64,000 bases of DNA from Leifsonia poae (GTDB lineage: Bacteria; Actinomycetota; Actinomycetes; Actinomycetales; Microbacteriaceae), in contig NZ_JAIHLP010000002.1 of NCBI RefSeq assembly GCF_020009625.1, positions 1,426,001 through 1,490,000 of the forward strand. The letters run 5' to 3'. The position numbers were made by a program, and so were the translations under genes. Shown in pieces: positions 2,060 through 63,568 of this stretch. The notes under the pieces are model-generated. The model was not told the DNA's origin. It was given only the letters and a program-made list of their open reading frames with translations, and made no database searches. Position 1 is the stretch's first letter, and each line of letters begins with the position of its first letter.

Positions 2060-2112
2060 GCTCCTAATCTATCGGGGCTCGGGCCGGGCAGGGAATTTGG
2101 CAGAATTGCCGA

Positions 2113-2946
2113 ATGGCTTCGCGAGGCATCATCGGCTCCGTCACCCGGGGGACGACGAACACCAATCGGCTGCGCCGCGTCGACCGCTGGATCGCGACCC
2201 TGCCGGAGCTGCGCCGAACCGACGATCCGCTCGTCGTCGACCTGGGGTACGGCGCCAGCGGCGTCACCGCGTTCGAGCTGCACCGCCGCTTGGCGAAGGC
2301 ACGACCGGATGCGGAGGTGCTCGGCCTCGAGATCGAGCCAGGCCGGGTGCGCACCGCGCTCGACCAGCTCGCATCCGTGCGCGCCGGCGGCACCGCGTTC
2401 GCCGCCGACGCCCGCATCGGCTTCGCGCTCGGCGGGTTCGAGGTGCCGTTGCCGAGCGGGCGCCTCGCCGCGGTCATCCGGGCGCTCAATGTGCTGCGGC
2501 AGTACGACGAGGCGCAGGTCGTTCCGTCGTGGCGGCGTCTGGTCGCCCGTCTGCAGCCCGGGGGTGTGCTGGTGGAGGGCACGTGCGACGAGATCGGCCG
2601 CGTCTCCAGCTGGGTCGATGTGGTGGCCGACGGCCCTCGCAGCCTCACGGTCTCACTGCGCCTCAGCGAGCTCGAATCCCCCTCGATCGTGGCCGAGCGG
2701 CTGCCGAAGGTTCTCATCCACCGCAATGTGCCGGGCGAGCCCGTGCACGAGCTGATGCTGGAGCTCGATCGGTTGTGGCGCATCCACGCCCCTCTTGCCG
2801 CCTACGGCCCTTCACAGCGGTGGATCGCTGTGGCTCAGGGCCTCCGCGACGCCGGCTGGCCGGTGCGCGGCGGGCGCTCGCGCTGGCGGCTCGGCGAGCT
2901 CTCCGTCGCCTGGCCGGCCGTCGCCCCCACCGACTTCAGCTGGTAG
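2113..2946 (+). CDS. Class I SAM-dependent methyltransferase-like protein
   Basis: A 277-residue protein with a degenerate Rossmann methyltransferase core. The glycine-rich SAM loop is VVDLGYGASG at about 41-50, a following acidic residue (LGLEIEPGR) fits ribose contact, and a post-III region LQPGGVLVEGT follows. The substrate is unknown. It starts 53 nt from gpmA in divergent orientation and meets ygfZ tail to tail (12-nt gap). No strong Shine-Dalgarno precedes the ATG. Confidence 0.75.
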   Translation: MASRGIIGSVTRGTTNTNRLRRVDRWIATLPELRRTDDPLVVDLGYGASGVTAFELHRRLAKARPDAEVLGLEIEPGRVRTALDQLASVRAGGTAFAADARIGFALGGFEVPLPSGRLAAVIRALNVLRQYDEAQVVPSWRRLVARLQPGGVLVEGTCDEIGRVSSWVDVVADGPRSLTVSLRLSELESPSIVAERLPKVLIHRNVPGEPVHELMLELDRLWRIHAPLAAYGPSQRWIAVAQGLRDAGWPVRGGRSRWRLGELSVAWPAVAPTDFSW

Positions 2947-2958
2947 CCCCGCGAGGTC

Positions 2959-4083
2959 TCAGCGGCGCACGGCGCCGAGGCGCGGCAGGCGCGGCACATT
3001 GGCCTCGGCGCCGGCCTCCGGTGGAACGACGATCTCCTGAGCGGCCGACACCGCAGTGCCGTCGGCGTCGACGGAGAGGATCGCCGCCGGGTCGGTGGAG
3101 CGCTTCACGACCGCGAGCGCGATCGGACCGAGTTCGTAGTGCAATGCGCTCGAGGTGACGAGGCCGACCTCGCGGCCCTCGAGCGAGACGACGGCGCCAC
3201 GCACGGGATGCGCGCCCTCCGACCCGTCCAGGTGGAGCATCACGAGGCGGCGCGGCGGATGCCCCAGGTTGTGCACCTTCGCCACGGTCTCCTGCCCGCG
3301 ATAGCACCCTTTGCTGAGGTGCACGGCGGTGCGGAGCCAGTCGAGCTCGTGCGGGATCGTCTTCTCGTCCACCTCGGTGGCGAATCGGGGCCGCCAGGCC
3401 GCGATGCGGAGCGCTTCGACGGCGAGCACTCCCGCAACGGGGAACTCGCCTGCGGTGACGCGGCCGACGAGCGAAGGCAGCGCTTCCCTCGGCACGAGTC
3501 GTTCACTCCACGACCACTCCGCGCCCGGATGCTCCCCCTGCGCATATTGGTGGCCGCCCGGGGAGACCGCGTGCCAAGGGTCGTGCCAGATGAGGGGCAC
3601 GCCGGCGGGCGCGGCGATCGGCAGCGCCGGGTCGCCGAGCGTTCCGATGGTGGCGAGGTCGGCGGTGCGGTCGGCGAGTTCGACCCGCAGCATGAAGCGC
3701 ATCCGTTCGAGCCAGGCGAGCAGGCCGGGCGCTTCGTCCCGTTCGAGCAGGAGCCAGACCGTCTCGCCGTCGTCCACAACGCGGGCCGCGTACTCGAGAC
3801 GACCGGTCACGTCGAGCAGCAGGGTCTCGGTGGACTCCCCCGGCCGCAGCCCGGTCAGACTCTGGCTGGTGAGGGAGTTGAGCCAGCTGAGCCTGTCCGG
3901 CCCGGTGACGCTGAGCACCGACCGGTCGGAGAGGTCGACGATCGCCCGCCCTTCGGCGAGCGCGCGCTGTTCCCCCAGCGGATTGCCGTAATGGGCCGGA
4001 ACGTCATGGTCAGCGGATGCGAGAGCGCCGGCGAGCGCCTCGGCGCCGACGGCACCGGGCAGGGTCAGGAACGGGGAGGTCAT
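2959..4083 (-). CDS. ygfZ: YgfZ/GcvT-domain folate-binding protein (Fe-S cluster repair)
   Basis: A 374-residue member of the YgfZ family, related to GcvT, which uses tetrahydrofolate to help assemble or repair [4Fe-4S] proteins. The diagnostic motif KGCYRGQE is present at 258-265, with the conserved cysteine at 260, followed by the C-terminal barrel. The ATG at 4083 overlaps the stop of the upstream nitrobindin gene by one base (TGATG), which indicates translational coupling. An in-frame TTG lies one codon upstream. Confidence 0.9.
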   Translation of the reverse strand: MTSPFLTLPGAVGAEALAGALASADHDVPAHYGNPLGEQRALAEGRAIVDLSDRSVLSVTGPDRLSWLNSLTSQSLTGLRPGESTETLLLDVTGRLEYAARVVDDGETVWLLLERDEAPGLLAWLERMRFMLRVELADRTADLATIGTLGDPALPIAAPAGVPLIWHDPWHAVSPGGHQYAQGEHPGAEWSWSERLVPREALPSLVGRVTAGEFPVAGVLAVEALRIAAWRPRFATEVDEKTIPHELDWLRTAVHLSKGCYRGQETVAKVHNLGHPPRRLVMLHLDGSEGAHPVRGAVVSLEGREVGLVTSSALHYELGPIALAVVKRSTDPAAILSVDADGTAVSAAQEIVVPPEAGAEANVPRLPRLGAVRR

Positions 4084-37303: not shown

Positions 37304-37813
37304 ATGAGCATCCTGAGCCTCGCCGACGGCAGCACCCCCAGCCTCTCCGAAACCGCCTGGGTCGCCCCAGGCGCCATCCTGGTCGGCCGCGTGCGGCTGC
37401 TCGACCACGCGAGCGTCTGGTACAACGCTGTGCTGCGCGCCGAGGCGGAGGAGATCGTGATCGGCGAGCGCAGCAACATCCAAGACAATGTCTCCTGTCA
37501 TGTCGACAGCGGGTTCCCGCTCACCCTCGGCGCTGATGTCTCTGTCGGCCACAACGCGGTGTTGCACGGCTGCACCATCGAAGACGGAGTGCTCGTCGGC
37601 ATGAACGCCACCGTGCTGAACGGCGCGGTCATCGGCGCCGGCTCGCTGCTCGCCGCCGGCACCGTCGTTCTGGAGGGCGCGATCGTGCCGCCGGGCTCCC
37701 TCGTCGCCGGCGTGCCCGGCAAGGTGCGCCGCGAGCTCACCGAGGAGGAGCGCGCCGGAATCATCGCCAATGCCGCCGCCTACCTGACCCACACCGCCGA
37801 GCACCGCGCCTGA
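37304..37813 (+). CDS. Gamma-carbonic anhydrase family protein
   Basis: A 169-residue left-handed beta-helix protein. Hexapeptide repeats cover about 15-140. Zinc-type histidines are in SCHVDSGFP (about 65) and SVGHNAVLHGC (about 84 and 89). The family includes CamH/YrdA-like proteins, many without proven CO2 hydration activity. It stands alone and ends just before a large repeat region. Confidence 0.88.
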   Translation: MSILSLADGSTPSLSETAWVAPGAILVGRVRLLDHASVWYNAVLRAEAEEIVIGERSNIQDNVSCHVDSGFPLTLGADVSVGHNAVLHGCTIEDGVLVGMNATVLNGAVIGAGSLLAAGTVVLEGAIVPPGSLVAGVPGKVRRELTEEERAGIIANAAAYLTHTAEHRA

Positions 37814-37830: not shown

Positions 37831-37899
37831 GGCCACCTCGGCCACCTCGGCCACCTCGGCCACCTCGGCCACCTCGGCCACCTCGGCCACCTCGGCCAC
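37831..37899. repeat. 9-nt tandem repeat GGCCACCTC
   Basis: Seven exact copies plus a partial eighth run directly into the first 12-nt motif of the 40-nt-pitch array at 37900. It lies between convergent genes and codes for nothing supported. Confidence 0.95.
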
Positions 37900-38191
37900 C
37901 CTGTTCTCAGGTGTTCGCCGCCGGCAGCTGCCGCAGCCACCTGAATACAGGACGGGTCGGCCGGTCGGAGTCGCGAACGCCTGAAAACAGGACGGGTCGG
38001 CCGGTCGGAGTCGCGAACGCCTGAAAACAGGACGGACCGGCCGGTCGGAGACGCGAACGCCTGAAAACAGGACGGACCGGCCGGTCGGAGACGCGAACGC
38101 CTGAAAACAGGACGGGCCGGCCGGTCGGAGACGCGAACGCCTGAAAACAGGACGGGCCGGCCGGTCGGAGACGCGAACGCCTGAAAACAGG
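37900..38191. repeat. Array 1 of the CCTG-N4-CAGG element: eight motifs at 40-nt pitch
   Basis: The 12-nt motif begins at 37900, 37940, 37980, 38020, 38060, 38100, 38140 and 38180. Copies are CCTGTTCTCAGG, CCTGAATACAGG and six CCTGAAAACAGG. Spacers are always 28 nt. The first spacer is unique; the later six are near-copies of one sequence with one to three base changes, showing local expansion. It lies between the convergent carbonic anhydrase and folD genes. Confidence 0.95.
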
Positions 38192-38216: not shown

Positions 38217-39101
38217 CTAGTCGGCCAAGGCCCGTTCTGCGGACTCGACCACGTTCTGCAGCAGAAGCGCCCTGGTCATCGGTCCGACACCGCCGGGGTT
38301 CGGCGAGATCCAGGATGCGACCTCGGCCACATCCTCGGCCACATCGCCCGCGACCCGGCTCTTGCCGGTGACGGGGTCTTCGATGCGGCTCACGCCGACG
38401 TCGAGCACGACCGCGCCTGGTTTCACGTTCGCCGCCGTCACCAGACCGGCAACGCCGGCGGCGGCCACGATCACATCGGCGCGGCGCAGGTGCGCATCCA
38501 GGTCGACGGTTCCCGTGTGGGTGAGCGTGACCGTCGCGTTGATCTCGCGGCGGGTCAGCAGCGAGCCGATCGCCCTGCCCACGGTGACCCCGCGACCGAT
38601 CACGACCACGTCCTTGCCCGACAGCTCGATGCCGTGCCGCAGCATCAGGTCGATCACGCCACGCGGGGTGCACGGCAGCGGGGTGGTGATCGGACGGTTG
38701 ACGTTCAGCACCAGCCGGCCGAGGTTCGTCGGATGCAGGCCGTCCGCATCCTTGCCCGGGTCGACGAGCTCCAGGATGGCGTCGGTGTCGATGTGGGGCG
38801 GCAGCGGCAGCTGCACGATGAAGCCGGTGCAGTCAGGGTCGCCGTTCAGCTCTTCGACGACAGCTTCCAGTTCTGCCTGCGAGGTGTCTGACGGCAGGTC
38901 GCGCCGGATGGAGGAGATCCCCACCTCGGCGCAGTCGCGGTGCTTGCCGGCGACATACCATTGCGATCCAGGGTCGTCCCCGACCAGGATCGTTCCCAGT
39001 CCCGGGACCACGCCACGCTCCCGCAGCGCACTCACGCGCTCCGTGAGCTCGGCCTTGATCTCGGCCGCGGTCTTCTTCCCATCCAGAATCTGTGCGTTCA
39101 T
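38217..39101 (-). CDS. folD: Bifunctional methylene-THF dehydrogenase/cyclohydrolase FolD
   Basis: A 294-residue FolD for one-carbon metabolism. It converts 5,10-methylene-THF to 10-formyl-THF with NADP. Motifs: YVAGKHRDC (about 49-57, catalytic Lys in the family position), [10 protein letters not shown] (about 95), PCTPRGV (about 142-148) and the NADP loop [11 protein letters not shown]. The ATG at 39101 follows GGAG with six-base spacing; the 39113 ATG is unlikely. It is downstream of glyA on the same strand, and purU is elsewhere in the window. Confidence 0.96.
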
Positions 39102-39123
39102 CACACTCTCCAAAGGTCAAGCG

Positions 39124-40521: not shown

Positions 40522-40792
40522 AACTGGCTCCTTAGGACAGGGAGGGGGACAGAAATCCGTATCGACCCAGGCGCGCGGCCGATTCCGCCCCCGCTGATCA
40601 AAGGCATGTGTCGCTTCCCAATGGTGACCATTTGAGCGCCAGTCGCGACGCCGCCAAGCATAGCAAAACCCGCTCGGAGGTCGAGACCTTGCCGATTCGT
40701 TAGGACCCCTGCAATACTCGCTGGTGGCCGTCCCGCGGGCGGGCAGCGTCGGCCGCCACCCCCAAAGCTCTTACCCAGCAGAAGGAGAACGC
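40522..40792. other. Divergent control region of glyA and the hexosaminidase gene
   Basis: On the glyA side TCGACC-N16-TATGCT (near 40660-40690) is a plausible promoter, leaving a long leader. A 13-nt palindrome AATGGTGACCATT is at 40620-40632. I searched by eye for glycine and THF riboswitch cores and saw none I could support. The plus-strand end carries AAGGAG (40782-40787) for the GH20 gene. Confidence 0.5.
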
Positions 40793-50929: not shown

Positions 50930-51715
50930 ATGAACAGGGCCGAGCGGTTGAACGCGGTGCTCGACCTCCTCGCCGAGTCGGGTCAGGTCGAGGTGGAGGA
51001 CATCGTCGTCAAGCTCGACGTCTCGGCCGCCACCGCCCGCCGCGACCTCGACGCCCTCGCCTCCCAGCAGCTGCTCACCCGCACTCGCGGCGGCGCGGTC
51101 GGCCAGTCGGTGGCCTACGACCTCCCCATCCGCTATAAGCGCGAGCAGCACGCCCCCGAGAAGCTGCGCATCGCCCAGGCGGCCAGCGCGCTCGTTCCGC
51201 GCGGCTCCGTCGTCGGCCTGTGCGGTGGCACCACGAGCACCGCCGTCGCGACGGTGCTCGGGTCGCGACCCGATCTGATGGAGCCGTCGCCGCATCCGAA
51301 TCTCACCGTCGTCACCAATGCGATCAACATCGCGGCCCAGCTGGTGATGCGACCGCAGATCAAGACGGTCGTCACCGGCGGAGTGGTCCACGCCCGCTCC
51401 TACGAGCTCGTCGGCCCCTACAGCGATGTCGTGCTGGAGAAGATCACGATGGATATCGCCTTCATCGGCGTCAACGGCATCGACGCCGTCGTCGGCGCCA
51501 CGGTGCACGACGAGGGCGAGGCGAGCGTCAACTCGCTCATGGCGCGGCGGGCCACCCGGGCGATCGTCGTCGCCGACTCCAGCAAGATCGGCCGCAAGGC
51601 CTTCGCCACCCTCGGCGGGCCCAAGATCCTCACCACCCTGATCACCGACAGCGGTATCACCGCCGAGCAGCGGGCCGAGTTCGCCGATCACGGCATCGAG
51701 GTGATCGTCGCATGA
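50930..51715 (+). CDS. DeoR-family regulator of the amino-sugar cluster
   Basis: A 261-residue AgaR-like DeoR protein: winged helix (about 3-55; VEVEDIVVKLDVSAATARRD) and DeoRC sensor (about 75-235; GLCGGTTSTAVATVL, VVADSSKIGRKAF). It overlaps nagA by four bases. Lying inside the operon, it probably controls it and the divergent transporter, possibly through the inverted repeat at 47119-47156. Confidence 0.9.
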   Translation: MNRAERLNAVLDLLAESGQVEVEDIVVKLDVSAATARRDLDALASQQLLTRTRGGAVGQSVAYDLPIRYKREQHAPEKLRIAQAASALVPRGSVVGLCGGTTSTAVATVLGSRPDLMEPSPHPNLTVVTNAINIAAQLVMRPQIKTVVTGGVVHARSYELVGPYSDVVLEKITMDIAFIGVNGIDAVVGATVHDEGEASVNSLMARRATRAIVVADSSKIGRKAFATLGGPKILTTLITDSGITAEQRAEFADHGIEVIVA

Positions 51716-52887
51716 CGGGCGCCACCATCGTGCACTCCGCCCGGTTGGTCGCCGACGGGCGCCTCCACCCCGATGGCTGGCTGCGGTTCCAGGCCGGCAC
51801 GACCACCGACGTCGGTTCCGGCGGCGGCTGGCGCTCCGCCATCGCCGACGACCCCTCCGTGTCGGTCGTCGACGCCAACGGCGCCTGGCTCACCCCCGGG
51901 TTCATCGACATCCACGTGCACGGCGGAGGCGGGGCGGCCTTCGATGACGGCGCCGACAGCATCCGGACGGCCCTCGACCTCCACCAGCAGCACGGCACGA
52001 CCCGGGTCGTCGTCTCGCTCGTCACCGCGCCGGTGGATGCGCTCGCCGAGCGTGTCTCGGCCGTCGCGTCGCTGACAGCGACAGACCCGCGCGTTCTGGG
52101 CTCGCACTTGGAGGGCCCCTTCCTCGACATCGCCCACAAGGGCGCCCACGACCCGGCCCTGCTCCACTCCGCCTCCACCGCCGACATCGAGCGTCTGCTC
52201 GAAGCCGCCCACGGCACTCTGCGCCAGATCACGCTCGCCCCCGAACTCCCCGGGGGGCTGGATGCGGTCCGCGCGTTCAGTTCCGCCGGCGTCGCGGTCG
52301 CGGTCGGGCACACCGGCGCGGACTACCGCCAGACGCGGGACGCCTTCGAGGCGGGCGCGAGCATCCTGACGCATGCCTTCAACGGTATGGACGGCATCCA
52401 CCACCGCGCGCCCGGCCCCGTGGCCGCCGCTACGCGCACGCCGGGGGTGACCATCGAGATCATCAACGACGGTGTCCACGTGCACCCCGAGGTGGTGCGG
52501 ATGACGTTCGCCTCCGCCCCGGGACGCGTCGCTCTGATCACCGACGCGATGGCCGCCGCCGGCGCCCGCGACGGCGACTACATCCTCGGCTCGCTCGCCG
52601 TCGCCGTGCGCGACGGTGTCGCACGCCTCGTCGAGGGCGGATCGATCGCCGGCTCGACGCTCACCCTCGACAGTGCCCTGCGACGCGCCGTGACCGAGGT
52701 GGGCATCCCTGTGGAGGATGCGGTGCGAGCCCTCAGCGAAACCCCTGCGCGGGCGATCGGGCGCGGGCACGACCTCGGGCGGCTCGCCCCCGGATACGCC
52801 GCCGATGTGCTCTTGCTCGACGACGACTTCCACGTCATCCGCTCCTGGACGGACGGCGTTCCCCTGCCCGCGCCCCTGCCCCGCTAG
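51712..52887 (+). CDS. nagA: N-acetylglucosamine/galactosamine-6-phosphate deacetylase (copy 1)
   Basis: A 391-residue amidohydrolase. Metal and catalytic positions are visible: FIDIHVHGGG (H68, H70), the metal Glu in SHLEGPF (about 140), GHTGAD (about 205), HAFNGMDGIHHR (about 226) and catalytic Asp in ITDAMAAAGA (about 283). The reaction removes acetate from the 6-phosphate. In this cluster, next to SIS, ROK, PfkB and aldolase genes, it may be AgaA-like (GalNAc-6-P). A second copy lies at 61551. Confidence 0.94.
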   Translation: MTGATIVHSARLVADGRLHPDGWLRFQAGTTTDVGSGGGWRSAIADDPSVSVVDANGAWLTPGFIDIHVHGGGGAAFDDGADSIRTALDLHQQHGTTRVVVSLVTAPVDALAERVSAVASLTATDPRVLGSHLEGPFLDIAHKGAHDPALLHSASTADIERLLEAAHGTLRQITLAPELPGGLDAVRAFSSAGVAVAVGHTGADYRQTRDAFEAGASILTHAFNGMDGIHHRAPGPVAAATRTPGVTIEIINDGVHVHPEVVRMTFASAPGRVALITDAMAAAGARDGDYILGSLAVAVRDGVARLVEGGSIAGSTLTLDSALRRAVTEVGIPVEDAVRALSETPARAIGRGHDLGRLAPGYAADVLLLDDDFHVIRSWTDGVPLPAPLPR

Positions 52888-52904: not shown

Positions 52905-52996
52905 CCTGTTTTCAGGATGCAGCGGCGAGCGACGACCGCTCAGCCCTGAATTCAGGCTTGCTTGGTCACCGTCGCGGCGATTCACCTGAAAACAGG
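52905..52996. repeat. Array 2 of the CCTG-N4-CAGG element: three motifs at 40-nt pitch
   Basis: CCTGTTTTCAGG at 52905, CCTGAATTCAGG at 52945 and CCTGAAAACAGG at 52985, with exact 28-nt spacers of different sequence. A 21-nt unit holding the last motif is duplicated (about 52987-53028), giving a degenerate extra copy GTTGAAAACAGG at 53006. It lies between convergent nagA and trpF, and its right part is inside trpF. Confidence 0.93.
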
Positions 52997-53637
52997 GGTG
53001 CCTCGGTTGAAAACAGGGGTGCCTCGGTTTCGCCCTGCTGCGCGGCGTGGACGAACTCCCTGACCAAGGTCACGGATTTCACCCCCGGCGAGCTCTCGAC
53101 CCCGCTCGACACGTCGACGCCCCAGGGCCGCAGGGTTCGGATGCGCTCGGCGACATTCCCCGGCGTCAGTCCGCCCGCCAGCACCCAGTCCCGGCTCGGC
53201 GGCCGCTCGACGAGCCCGCCGCCGTCGAAAAGCCGCCCCGCGCCCGGTTCGGGGGCGTCGAGCAGCAGGTGGTCCGCCGGGTGGGGAGCCACCTCGCGCT
53301 CCGGCGCATAGTCGCGAGCCGCCATCGCCCGGATGGTCGGCCACCCCCGCTCACGGAGCTCCCGATGATCGGCGGCCGGCTCGGCGCCGTGAAGCTGCAC
53401 CACGGCGACGCCGGACAGCTCGGCGAGCGCGACGACCTCCGCCAGCGGCTGGTTGCGGAAGACGCCGACCGTGAGCACGCCGCGCTCCCGGGCGTGCGCG
53501 ACGAGAGGCGCCGCGTCGACCGCGGGAACGGTGCGCACGCTGCCCGGCGCGAAGACGAAACCGACCGCATCCGCACCCGCGCCGACGGCGGCGTCGACCG
53601 TCTCCCGATCGCGCAGACCGCACACCTTCACCCACAT
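52966..53637 (-). CDS. trpF: Phosphoribosylanthranilate isomerase
   Basis: A 223-residue TIM-barrel enzyme of tryptophan synthesis. Motifs: VKVCGLRD (3-10, catalytic Cys7), AVGFVFAPGSVR (about 25-36), VQLHG (about 80-84), LLLDAPEPG (catalytic Asp about 128) and VLAGGLTPGNV with VDVSSGVESSPGVK. The last 15 or so residues (TEAPLFSTEAPLFSGE) are translated from a duplicated copy of the intergenic repeat element, so this tail is acquired, not part of the barrel. It stands apart from other trp genes. Confidence 0.95.
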   Translation of the reverse strand: MWVKVCGLRDRETVDAAVGAGADAVGFVFAPGSVRTVPAVDAAPLVAHARERGVLTVGVFRNQPLAEVVALAELSGVAVVQLHGAEPAADHRELRERGWPTIRAMAARDYAPEREVAPHPADHLLLDAPEPGAGRLFDGGGLVERPPSRDWVLAGGLTPGNVAERIRTLRPWGVDVSSGVESSPGVKSVTLVREFVHAAQQGETEAPLFSTEAPLFSGESPRR

Positions 53638-61550: not shown

Positions 61551-62705
61551 ATGACCGGTCTCGTCGTCCACAGCGCCCGCAAAGTGGATGCGGACGGGCT
61601 CGTCGATGACTTCTGGTTCGTCGCAGACGGCGGCGTCATCATCGCCACCGGGAGCGGAACCGGCTGGCATGCAGCGGCTCACGGGTCTGGCCGCGAGATC
61701 GTGGACGCGGGCGGACACTGGCTCACTCCCGGATTCATCGACCTGCACTGTCACGGCGGTGGCGGGCATCCATTCGACGACGGCCCCGAGCAGATGCTCG
61801 AGGGTCTCGCCACCCACCGCGCCCACGGAACGACGCGCTCGCTGGTGAGCCATGTCGCCAACCCGCTCGCCGCACTGCGCGAGAGCCTCTCGATCGTCGC
61901 CGACCTCGCCGAGACCGATCCGCTCGTGCTCGGTTCGCACCTCGAAGGCCCGTTCCTCGCCCCGGCCCGTCGCGGCGCCCACGATGAGGCCTTCCTGCGC
62001 GAGCCGGGCCCGGAGATGGTGGAGGAGCTGATCGGCGCCGCCCGAGGCTCGCTGCGCCTGGCCACGATCGCCCCCGAGCTGCCCAACGCCTTGGAGAGCA
62101 TCGGCGTGCTCATCGAGGCCGACGTCGTGGTCGGGATCGGCCACACCGAGGCCGACTTCGAACAGGCGACGCGCGCGTTCGAGGTGGGTGCCCGTGTGCT
62201 CACCCATGCGTTCAACGCGATGAACGGCATCCACCATCGGGCTCCCGGCCCTGTCGTGGCCGCGTTCGAGAACCCCGAGGTGACCCTCGAGCTGATCCTC
62301 GACGGCCTGCACGTGCATCCGATGGTCGCCAAGCTGGCGTTCACGGCCGCGCCGGGGCGGGTCGCCCTGGTGACGGATGCGATGGCCGCCGCGGGCGCCA
62401 GCGACGGCGATTACCGCCTCGGCTCCCTCAACGTGACCGTGCGCGATGGCCTCGCGGTGCTCTCGGGAACGTCCACGATCGCCGGTTCCACGCTCACGCA
62501 GGATGTGGCCCTGCGCAATGCGGTCACTCTCGTCGGGCTCGACCCGCAGCGCGCGGTCGAGGCGCTCACGCTGACGCCGGCCCGCGTGCTCGGCGAAGAC
62601 CATCGGCTGGGCCGGCTCCACGCCGGCTACGCGGCGGATGCGGTGCTGCTCGACCACGAGTGGACCGTGCAGCACGTCTTCGCCGACGGCGTCGCCCTGC
62701 GCTGA
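61551..62705 (+). CDS. nagA: N-acetylglucosamine-6-phosphate deacetylase (copy 2)
   Basis: A 384-residue NagA paralogue of the gene at 51712. All catalytic positions are present: FIDLHCHGGGGHPF, SHLEGPFLAPARRGAHD, GIGHTEADF, HAFNAMNGIHHR and catalytic Asp in VTDAMAAAGASDGDYRLG. A cysteine replaces the valine between the two histidines (HCH, against HVH in copy 1). It has no amino-sugar neighbours except the DUF2568 gene, so it may serve cell-wall GlcNAc recycling while copy 1 serves the imported sugar (inference). Confidence 0.94.
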   Translation: MTGLVVHSARKVDADGLVDDFWFVADGGVIIATGSGTGWHAAAHGSGREIVDAGGHWLTPGFIDLHCHGGGGHPFDDGPEQMLEGLATHRAHGTTRSLVSHVANPLAALRESLSIVADLAETDPLVLGSHLEGPFLAPARRGAHDEAFLREPGPEMVEELIGAARGSLRLATIAPELPNALESIGVLIEADVVVGIGHTEADFEQATRAFEVGARVLTHAFNAMNGIHHRAPGPVVAAFENPEVTLELILDGLHVHPMVAKLAFTAAPGRVALVTDAMAAAGASDGDYRLGSLNVTVRDGLAVLSGTSTIAGSTLTQDVALRNAVTLVGLDPQRAVEALTLTPARVLGEDHRLGRLHAGYAADAVLLDHEWTVQHVFADGVALR

Positions 62706-62741
62706 CCCGCCCGCAGCCCTCCGCCCCGGCTGCCGCCCCCG

Positions 62742-62801
62742 CCCGTCCGCCCACCGCCCGTCCGCCCACCGCCCGTCCGCTCACCACCCGTCCGCTCACC
62801 A
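62742..62801. repeat. 15-nt tandem repeat CCCGTCCGCCCACCG
   Basis: Four copies; the last two carry CTCACCA in place of CCCACCG. The array ends nine bases before array 3. Confidence 0.9.
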
Positions 62802-62810
62802 CCCCACCCT

Positions 62811-62902
62811 CCTGTTTTCAGGACATCCCCGCCTGCGACGACCGGTGGCACCTGAATTCAGGAGCCGGCAGCCCTCAGCCGCGCGCCTCTCCTGAGAACA
62901 GG
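62811..62902. repeat. Array 3 of the CCTG-N4-CAGG element: three motifs at 40-nt pitch
   Basis: CCTGTTTTCAGG at 62811, CCTGAATTCAGG at 62851 and CCTGAGAACAGG at 62891, with 28-nt spacers. Spacer 1 shares GCGACGACCG with spacer 1 of array 2 at the same position. The order of motifs is the same as in arrays 1 and 2. It lies between convergent nagA and tetR. Confidence 0.95.
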
Positions 62903-62910
62903 TCGGTGCC

Positions 62911-62960
62911 GGAGACTGACGGAGACCGACGGAGACCGACGGAGACCGACGGAGACCGAC
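62911..62960. repeat. 10-nt tandem repeat GGAGACCGAC
   Basis: Five copies (the first GGAGACTGAC) start eight bases after array 3 and run to near the TetR stop. Confidence 0.93.
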
Positions 62961-62992: not shown

Positions 62993-63568
62993 TCAACTTG
63001 CGTCGCCCGGCGCCAGCACGGTGACGAGCACGTCCACCAGCCGGCGCACATCCGCCTCCATGTCGATCGTCGGGTCGAGCAACCACTGCACCTGCAGCCC
63101 GTCGAGGGTGGCCGCCACGATCCTCGCCACCCAGGGAGCATCCGACTCGGTGAGACGCGGCTCGTCCGCGATGAGGGTCTCAGCGAGCCGCGCGTAGCGT
63201 TCGGCGAAGTATGCGTGGGCGGGATGCGCGGGATCGGAGGAGGCCGCAGCCAGGTCTGTGAACAGCTTGACCAGTCCCGGGGTCTCGGTGTTCTCGCGCA
63301 CGATGGCGGTGAGTCGTTCGACACCCGAACCGGTGTGACGTTCGTCGCTGCTGCGGTCGCGTTCGGCGAGCACTCCGACCAGCAGGGCGTCTTTCGAACC
63401 GAAGTGGTGCAGCAGTGCCGCCTCGGTGAGGCCGACCCGTCCGGCGATCTCGCGCAGGGTCACACCCGAGGCGCCCGCGCCCGCGTAGGCGTCGAGTGCG
63501 GCCTCGAGGATCTCCTGTTTGCGGCGCGCGGTCTTGGCGTAGGGTCCGCGGGGGGCTCGGGCGGTCAT
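62993..63568 (-). CDS. TetR-family regulator
   Basis: A 191-residue TetR: helix-turn-helix (about 15-62) with RKQEILEAALDAYAGAG, LREIAGRVGLTEAALLHHFG and SKDALLVGVL; C-terminal TetR domain with LQVQWLLDPTIDMEADVRRL near the end. It is divergent from a GH1 beta-glucosidase gene. This subgroup often controls glycosidases in actinobacteria, so a sugar-responsive role is likely. Confidence 0.9.
   Translation of the reverse strand: MTARAPRGPYAKTARRKQEILEAALDAYAGAGASGVTLREIAGRVGLTEAALLHHFGSKDALLVGVLAERDRSSDERHTGSGVERLTAIVRENTETPGLVKLFTDLAAASSDPAHPAHAYFAERYARLAETLIADEPRLTESDAPWVARIVAATLDGLQVQWLLDPTIDMEADVRRLVDVLVTVLAPGDAS

Follow-up and report, generated by a model that had tools for sequence, protein, structure and literature searches.

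Terminator hairpins are usually viewed as elements in which structure alone is what is kept, and a plain terminator has no need for letters common to a whole genome. In the parts of the respective papers available, Streptomyces clavuligerus is reported to have stem-loop 3′ ends that lack U-tracts (PMC8269248), tandem and cluster hairpins are reported as terminators (PMC8355165), and DNA uptake signals are said to number generally 1,000 or more per genome (PMC1852404). The repeat surveys PMC1590033 and PMC2267715 deal with other genera, and Leifsonia has 0 occurrences in their main texts. A literature search to which most subscription papers were closed returned no description of the element discussed here, which lies in a 64,000-nucleotide stretch of the Leifsonia poae genome (the window). 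Each of its three arrays is best explained as a member, tandem-enlarged in the case of array 1, of a repeated family of long near-symmetric hairpins.

Arrays in the window and the family in Leifsonia poae

The window contains 14 exact CCTG-N4-CAGG motifs against 1.2 expected, and 0 of 100 shuffles of the window reach that number. All of them lie in three arrays at an exact 40-nt pitch, with the positions and pitch that a sequence-only reading of the window had given. Array 1 has motifs starting at 37900 and every 40 nt up to a last start at 38180, array 2 has starts at 52905, 52945 and 52985, and array 3 at 62811, 62851 and 62891. The eight motifs counted by that reading in array 1 are indeed present, but they are not equal members: one three-motif unit (37900, 37940 and 37980) is followed by five further tandem repeats of its 40-nt right arm, with near-identical spacers. 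The elements and their flanking genes are as follows.

37900..37991, no strand: array 1 three-motif unit (L 37900-37911, C 37940-37951, R 37980-37991; exact motifs)
37992..38191, no strand: array 1, five tandem 40-nt right-arm copies (spacer plus CCTGAAAACAGG; from sequence, near-identical spacers)
52905..52996, no strand: array 2 three-motif unit (TTTT, AATT, AAAA; exact motifs)
62811..62902, no strand: array 3 three-motif unit (TTTT, AATT, AGAA; exact motifs)
37304..37813, plus strand: array 1 flank, hexapeptide-repeat protein, gamma-carbonic-anhydrase-like by eye (open reading frame, Pfam Hexapep)
38217..39113, minus strand: array 1 flank, FolD, tetrahydrofolate dehydrogenase/cyclohydrolase (open reading frame, Pfam)
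51715..52857, plus strand: array 2 flank, matched part of an amidohydrolase, NagA-like paralog (match C2:1477715-1478857; Pfam Amidohydro_1)
52969..53637, minus strand: array 2 flank, TrpF, with the frame end within the element (Pfam PRAI)
61551..62690, plus strand: array 3 flank, matched part of a NagA-like amidohydrolase (protein match, Pfam)
62993..63568, minus strand: array 3 flank, TetR-family regulator (gene call, Pfam)

The placement of all three arrays between convergent genes, also noted from the sequence, holds after checking by Pfam and translation: the hexapeptide protein faces FolD, and the two NagA-like amidohydrolases face TrpF and the TetR regulator, respectively. At 52969-53031 the minus-strand trpF frame overlaps the array 2 right motif and carries a 21-nt tandem duplication that writes TEAPLFS twice, outside the PRAI domain, which spans residues 3-197 of 222. 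Short tandem repeats that are not related to the motif adjoin elements at 37836-37899, 62740-62800 and 62910-62960 of the window and at the loci L018, L024, L026 and L029, as if the spacers beside several elements were prone to slippage or duplication. Rfam at gathering threshold returned only tRNA and a ZTP riboswitch in the window, neither at the arrays; the ZMP/ZTP riboswitch (40558-40656, minus strand) lies upstream of glyA (by eye), with folD next. At seven further loci, searched up to E 0.1, the one sub-threshold match was to a microRNA family in the L117 hairpin and was taken as chance.

The whole genome (4.14 Mb, G000) contains 144 CCTG-N4-CAGG motifs against 31 for the reversed control, CCTGWNNWCAGG occurs 83 times against 2 for its control, and motif pairs with the 28-nt spacing number 29 against 0. 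A neighbor pitch of 40 nt was found 29 times and each other pitch at most 3 times, in a count that covered the window plus 23 other stretches of the same genome and went as far as 130 nt. The 40-nt pitch and the motif excess over controls indicate that the element is real and non-random, and the regular spacing proposed from the window applies genome-wide. Had the three window loci been the only ones, this would have spoken against the original proposal, but there are 25 in all. A profile built from 20 units of 18 loci (R1) added six further diverged loci for a total of 24 and gave one weak match in the other 27 genomes of the genus; the 25th locus, at C2:1.01 Mb, came from the profiles R2 and R3 described below. 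Tandem copies at these loci also occur at pitches of 17, 22, 24, 25, 59 and 62 nt, and positions give larger ones of 162 and 181 nt, while the distance from left to right motif stays at about 80 nt. At L022:2083-2325, five copies of CCTGTTCTCAGG at a pitch alternating between 59 and 62 nt precede a degenerate unit. All 25 loci lie within about 1.44 Mb of a ParB-site cluster at 2.386 Mb on contig C2, where half the chromosome is about 1.99 Mb if a circle is assumed (p 4e-4, post hoc, for 24 loci).

Elements mostly adjoin stop codons, most often in convergent spacers. After correction by hand, 14 of the 25 loci are convergent, 10 co-directional and 1 divergent, versus 12, 26 and 11 among the window's 49 spacers, which are uncorrected gene calls with the three arrays included (binomial p 7e-4 for the convergent excess and 0.014 for the divergent deficit). 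Raw calls at the 25 loci had given 15, 7 and 3; Pfam and translations corrected the orientation at 52905, L020, L026 and the first site of L138, and it is uncertain at L019 and L140, where one side has no clear gene for about 1 kb. The convergent siting seen in the window is thus a genome-wide preference but not a rule. At L138:2963-3054, the 3′ end of a DUF559/MTES_1575-like gene (frame 2082-3044) overlaps an element. An element without a recognizable left motif sits between co-directional dnaJ and grpE (by eye), an apparent operon, at L023:1963-2053.

Layout of the unit and its spelling in relatives

The unit is a 92-nt imperfect palindrome in which the outer motifs form the foot of a hairpin and the middle motif its tip. 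Twenty units from 18 loci align gap-free in one design that is symmetric around the middle motif. The left motif is CCTGTTTTCAGG, often with AGAA next, and the spacer behind it ends in ..ACCG plus 6 nt; the middle motif is followed by 6 nt plus CGG.., a spacer, and the right motif CCTGAAAACAGG, often with CT before it. In almost every one of the 20 units, CCG and CGG lie at constant distances from the middle motif. Left and right motifs are complementary in most units, which bears out the three-motif palindrome with pairing outer motifs described from the window. The order of motif centers described with it (T-rich, AATT-like, A-rich) survives as a tendency, with TTTT or TTCT on the left in 14 of 20 units and AAAA or AGAA on the right in 13 (one of these shifted by one base), but it is not strict.

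RNA folding of 26 units (24 loci) gave a mean z of −5.0 forward and −4.9 reverse, with z below −2 in 81% and 92%, respectively; most of the units form a single long hairpin whose tip is the middle motif. The array 1 unit reaches −51.8 and −48.7 kcal/mol on its two strands (z −5.1 and −4.8), and z is −5.5 and −5.3 for the array 2 unit and −3.1 and −3.7 for that of array 3. T-runs are rare: the 8 nt next to the foot contain at least three T in 2 of 23 units forward and 0 of 23 reverse. The inner helix covaries: its score of 0.197 is attained by 0 of 500 shuffles (0.132) and compares with 0.130 or less for slid positions, and 67.2% of its cells are paired versus 62.9%, while two of five measures are not above shuffles (double-change pairs, 209 of 500; further pair types, 184 of 500). 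The outer helix of left and right motifs gave no covariation (0.089 versus 0.089, reached by 243 of 500 shuffles; paired cells 74.1% versus 74.2%), and isolated compensated cases (L035 and L139) exist alongside uncompensated ones. Strict pairing of the outer motifs was accordingly rejected as the conserved feature, and pairing alone does not explain why their letters are kept.

The letters of the CCTG pair form are absent from all 27 congeners tested, but the element itself, whose absence from relatives had been put forward as a test, is present there: congeners carry hairpins of like layout but different letters. In two further genomes of the order there is a single match each, lacking the AT-rich center, which we took as chance. 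Exact scans found 0 AT-centered motif pairs in genome_contigs, where the genome's own record is perhaps not included, and 0 in viral contigs, which also gave 0 for the AACTCCGGAGAT hairpin. Leifsonia shinshuensis DP-L11 (G026) contains TCCGGANNTCCGGA six times (control 0), four of these paired, at distances of 39 and 41 nt, and two standing alone. When the four stretches concerned were read with degenerate half-motifs, they gave six units, whose motifs are 41 and 39 nt apart and which aligned gap-free, so the span from left to right motif is 80 nt there too. A rigid ruler of four helical turns at 40 nt, another proposal from the window, was rejected since the pitch differs between species and among tandem copies, with values such as 17 and 62 nt at the loci of the window's own genome.

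A profile of the six G026 units (R3) matches at least 19 of the 28 genus genomes, own included, at E ≤ 1e-3 and at least 26 of 28 at E ≤ 0.1, with E-values that are rough and match rows that count both strands. A profile of mixed training (R2) matches 28 of 28 at E ≤ 0.1, with part of the weak matches looking like coding DNA. Its E-values are unsafe, as all but L196 among the 12 matches L188-L199 look coding or promoter, some with E near 1e-4, and the genus-wide claim therefore rests on R3 and on loci read individually. Beyond the genus, stricter filters left 11 of 199 family genomes at E ≤ 1e-4, two of these within the genus. Among the family matches, L232, L234, L235, L239 and L240 are hairpins whose stems resemble AACTCAGGAGA or AATTCAGGAGA, near the spelling of L. 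poae; L237, L242 and L244 look like different hairpins.

Spelling is biased by genome. The ratio of CTCCGGAA to CTCCGGAG is 33:1 in G011 (10 stretches) and 6:37 in G019 (10 stretches; Fisher p 2e-14 between the two), 7:26 in G003 (8 stretches) and 15:12 in G010 (9 stretches), the stretches coming from R3 and R2 matches and the counts within an array not being independent. The main profile was trained on CTCCGGAG, so its bias runs against the result for G011, which the NagA-like protein places nearest to L. poae (91%). Some genomes have two spellings, for example G009 with AACTCCGGAG (L145) and AACGGAGGAGATC (after nagA). A box, CGACACGCC, is present in 8 of 10 stretches of G011, 6 of 10 of G019, 5 of 8 of G003 and 5 of 9 of G010, and in the family matches L233, L235 and L240. 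The window arrays lack it, and the window as a whole shows no excess of it (GCGACACGCC once, outside the arrays, versus 1.1 expected). L158:1500-1605 (G000 C2:1.01 Mb), the only L. poae copy between divergent genes, is also the only one whose intergenic DNA has a box close to CGACACGCC, namely CGACATGCC; it is more like the congeners' form than that of its own genome. G022 and G017 have a locus that seems to be orthologous (95% protein identity), where each arm of the stem differs between the two genomes and pairing is kept. A leuA flank is common to L117, L147 and L153, from three genomes. A layout that is kept while sister species respell the palindrome suggests a signal at gene ends with letters that drift between species.

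One convergent spacer could be followed across the genus. The spacer after the gene preceding array 3, which faces nagB (by eye), is readable in 25 congeners; two others yielded only a paralog of 54% identity, and in L. poae the facing gene is the TetR regulator, not nagB. In 17 of the 25 the spacer is about 79-293 nt long and has a perfect stem of 8-25 nt, with z below −2 in 14 and no better than −1.6 in the remaining three. The other eight have spacers of 0-55 nt with no stem above 6 and no hairpin. A hairpin thus recurs at the nagA spacer wherever room exists, with its letters changing. By reading, CTCCGG or CGGAGGA words occur in 10 of the 17 long spacers and other stems in seven. Leifsonia aquatica H1aii (G002) has a TCCGGA-type hairpin at this position, and L213 (L. 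shinshuensis) and L220 (G020, with a perfect 25-bp stem) have long near-perfect hairpins whose stems are unlike the common words.

Explanations for the gene-end hairpins

The elements are probably U-less two-way terminators or mRNA 3′-end hairpins, which is also the best supported of the roles suggested from sequence for the arrays. In a transcript arriving from either side, the 92-nt unit would fold back with the left and right motifs as foot, the inner helix (..ACCG..../....CGGT..) as shaft and the middle motif as tip, its AT-rich tetranucleotide forming the loop. Because the unit is palindromic, both strands would give nearly the same hairpin, and one element could serve the transcripts of both genes. 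It would either end both transcripts or protect both 3′ ends, as a U-less (I-shaped), two-way (X-shaped) terminator or stabilizer. Additional motifs arise by local tandem duplication of one arm. In favor of this reading are the folding on both strands, the covarying inner helix, the siting, the scarcity of T-runs and the hairpins that recur with altered letters in congeners. Counted against it are the outer helix without covariation, the 10 co-directional loci among 25, L023 in its apparent operon, the divergent L158, the eight congeners with no hairpin in the nagA spacer and the three long spacers there that fold weakly. A terminator or 3′-end role also leaves unexplained that letters are common within a genome and change between genomes, a pattern that could come from copying, gene conversion or a recognition factor.

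A recognition factor is central to one alternative, in which the elements serve as a binding platform for a protein (a nucleoid, replication or termination factor) that recognizes DNA or hairpins by sequence and reads CCTG-N4-CAGG dyads. Co-evolution of factor and motif would bring about a genome-wide motif change per species. The genome-biased spelling agrees with this idea, as do motif letters kept beside diverged spacers, outer motifs kept without covariation, the constant CCG and CGG offsets, the retention of the motif in most tandem copies and the position of the loci relative to the ParB-site cluster. We nevertheless judge it unlikely given a pitch that varies between species and among tandem copies, a total of only 25 loci, the gene-end bias and the covariation of the inner helix. 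A more specific version, a gene-end code of the Microbacteriaceae, is a long shot: a trans-acting factor in each genome would read its own hairpin word, and the elements would track its specificity. The words of such a conjectural and rather improbable code would be CCTGN4CAGG here and TCCGGANNTCCGGA, AACTCCGGAA or AACGGAGGAGATC elsewhere, often with the common box CGACACGCC. Were it true, termination, RNA protection or chromosome organization would involve a co-evolving system with an ~80-nt three-palindrome frame kept across species.

Copying is the basis of another alternative, in which a non-autonomous palindromic repeat (REP/ERIC/MITE-like) with little function of its own was copied into gene ends and tolerated there. 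Copy families spelled genome-specifically, local tandem amplification and elements that overlap the 3′ ends of coding frames (52969, L138) would all fit, and a nagA-nagB spacer that is either short or hairpin-bearing is the pattern expected from insertions. Yet PF01797 (Y1/RAYT transposase) was found in 0 of 28 genomes searched, with control genomes positive in 5 of 14, and target-site duplications of 4-mers or longer occur in 2 of 23 units (9%), not above the control (12%). REPIN/RAYT was rejected on the first count and a MITE, despite terminal inverted repeats, on the second, so the mobile repeat among the roles first proposed is not supported in its RAYT or MITE form. Array 1 had no match in the plasmids or phages searched, and inner-helix covariation and hairpins recurring at one site also speak against a passively copied repeat, which we regard as quite improbable. 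In Neisseria and Pasteurellaceae, pairs of DNA uptake words form terminators, and words of this kind would account for a short genome-specific motif that stands in inverted copies where genes end (compare the available text of PMC1852404). The 144 motifs (control 31) are too few beside the at least 1,000 per genome that are typical, and this candidate was rejected as extremely improbable.

Comparison with known systems

With a two-way gene-end hairpin as the preferred reading, the element is a new family of a known type, and the genome-wide motif change is its unusual part. Gene-end hairpins with a common word per genome, which changes among congeners as the frame is kept, offer a natural experiment in the concerted evolution of non-coding DNA. 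They point to a new copying process or a new recognition factor that acts where genes end in Gram-positive bacteria of high GC content.

The regular repeat-spacer pitch resembles a CRISPR array at first sight. The 12-nt repeat, the three-motif basic unit and the spacers of the long array, near-identical rather than distinct, do not, and CRISPR was rejected on this geometry, in agreement with the sequence-only reading. Like the I- and X-shaped U-less terminators of GC-rich bacteria, as described in the portions of PMC8269248 and PMC8355165 available, the element is a stable hairpin near stop codons that has no U-tract, is usable from both strands and can occur in clusters. Unlike them, it has dozens of loci, one palindromic word three times per unit and a word that differs between congeners. 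With the uptake-signal terminators of Neisseria and Pasteurellaceae, as far as the accessible text of PMC1852404 goes, it shares a genome-specific word in inverted copies at gene ends, whereas about 25 loci with three palindromes per unit stand against 1,000 or more copies. REP/BIME, REPIN, ERIC and other stem-loop repeats are likewise intergenic, palindromic, genome-specific and near gene 3′ ends in the available parts of PMC1590033 and PMC2267715. The Leifsonia element differs from them in having no RAYT and in an ~80-nt three-motif frame (between outer centers) that is kept across species while the letters change.
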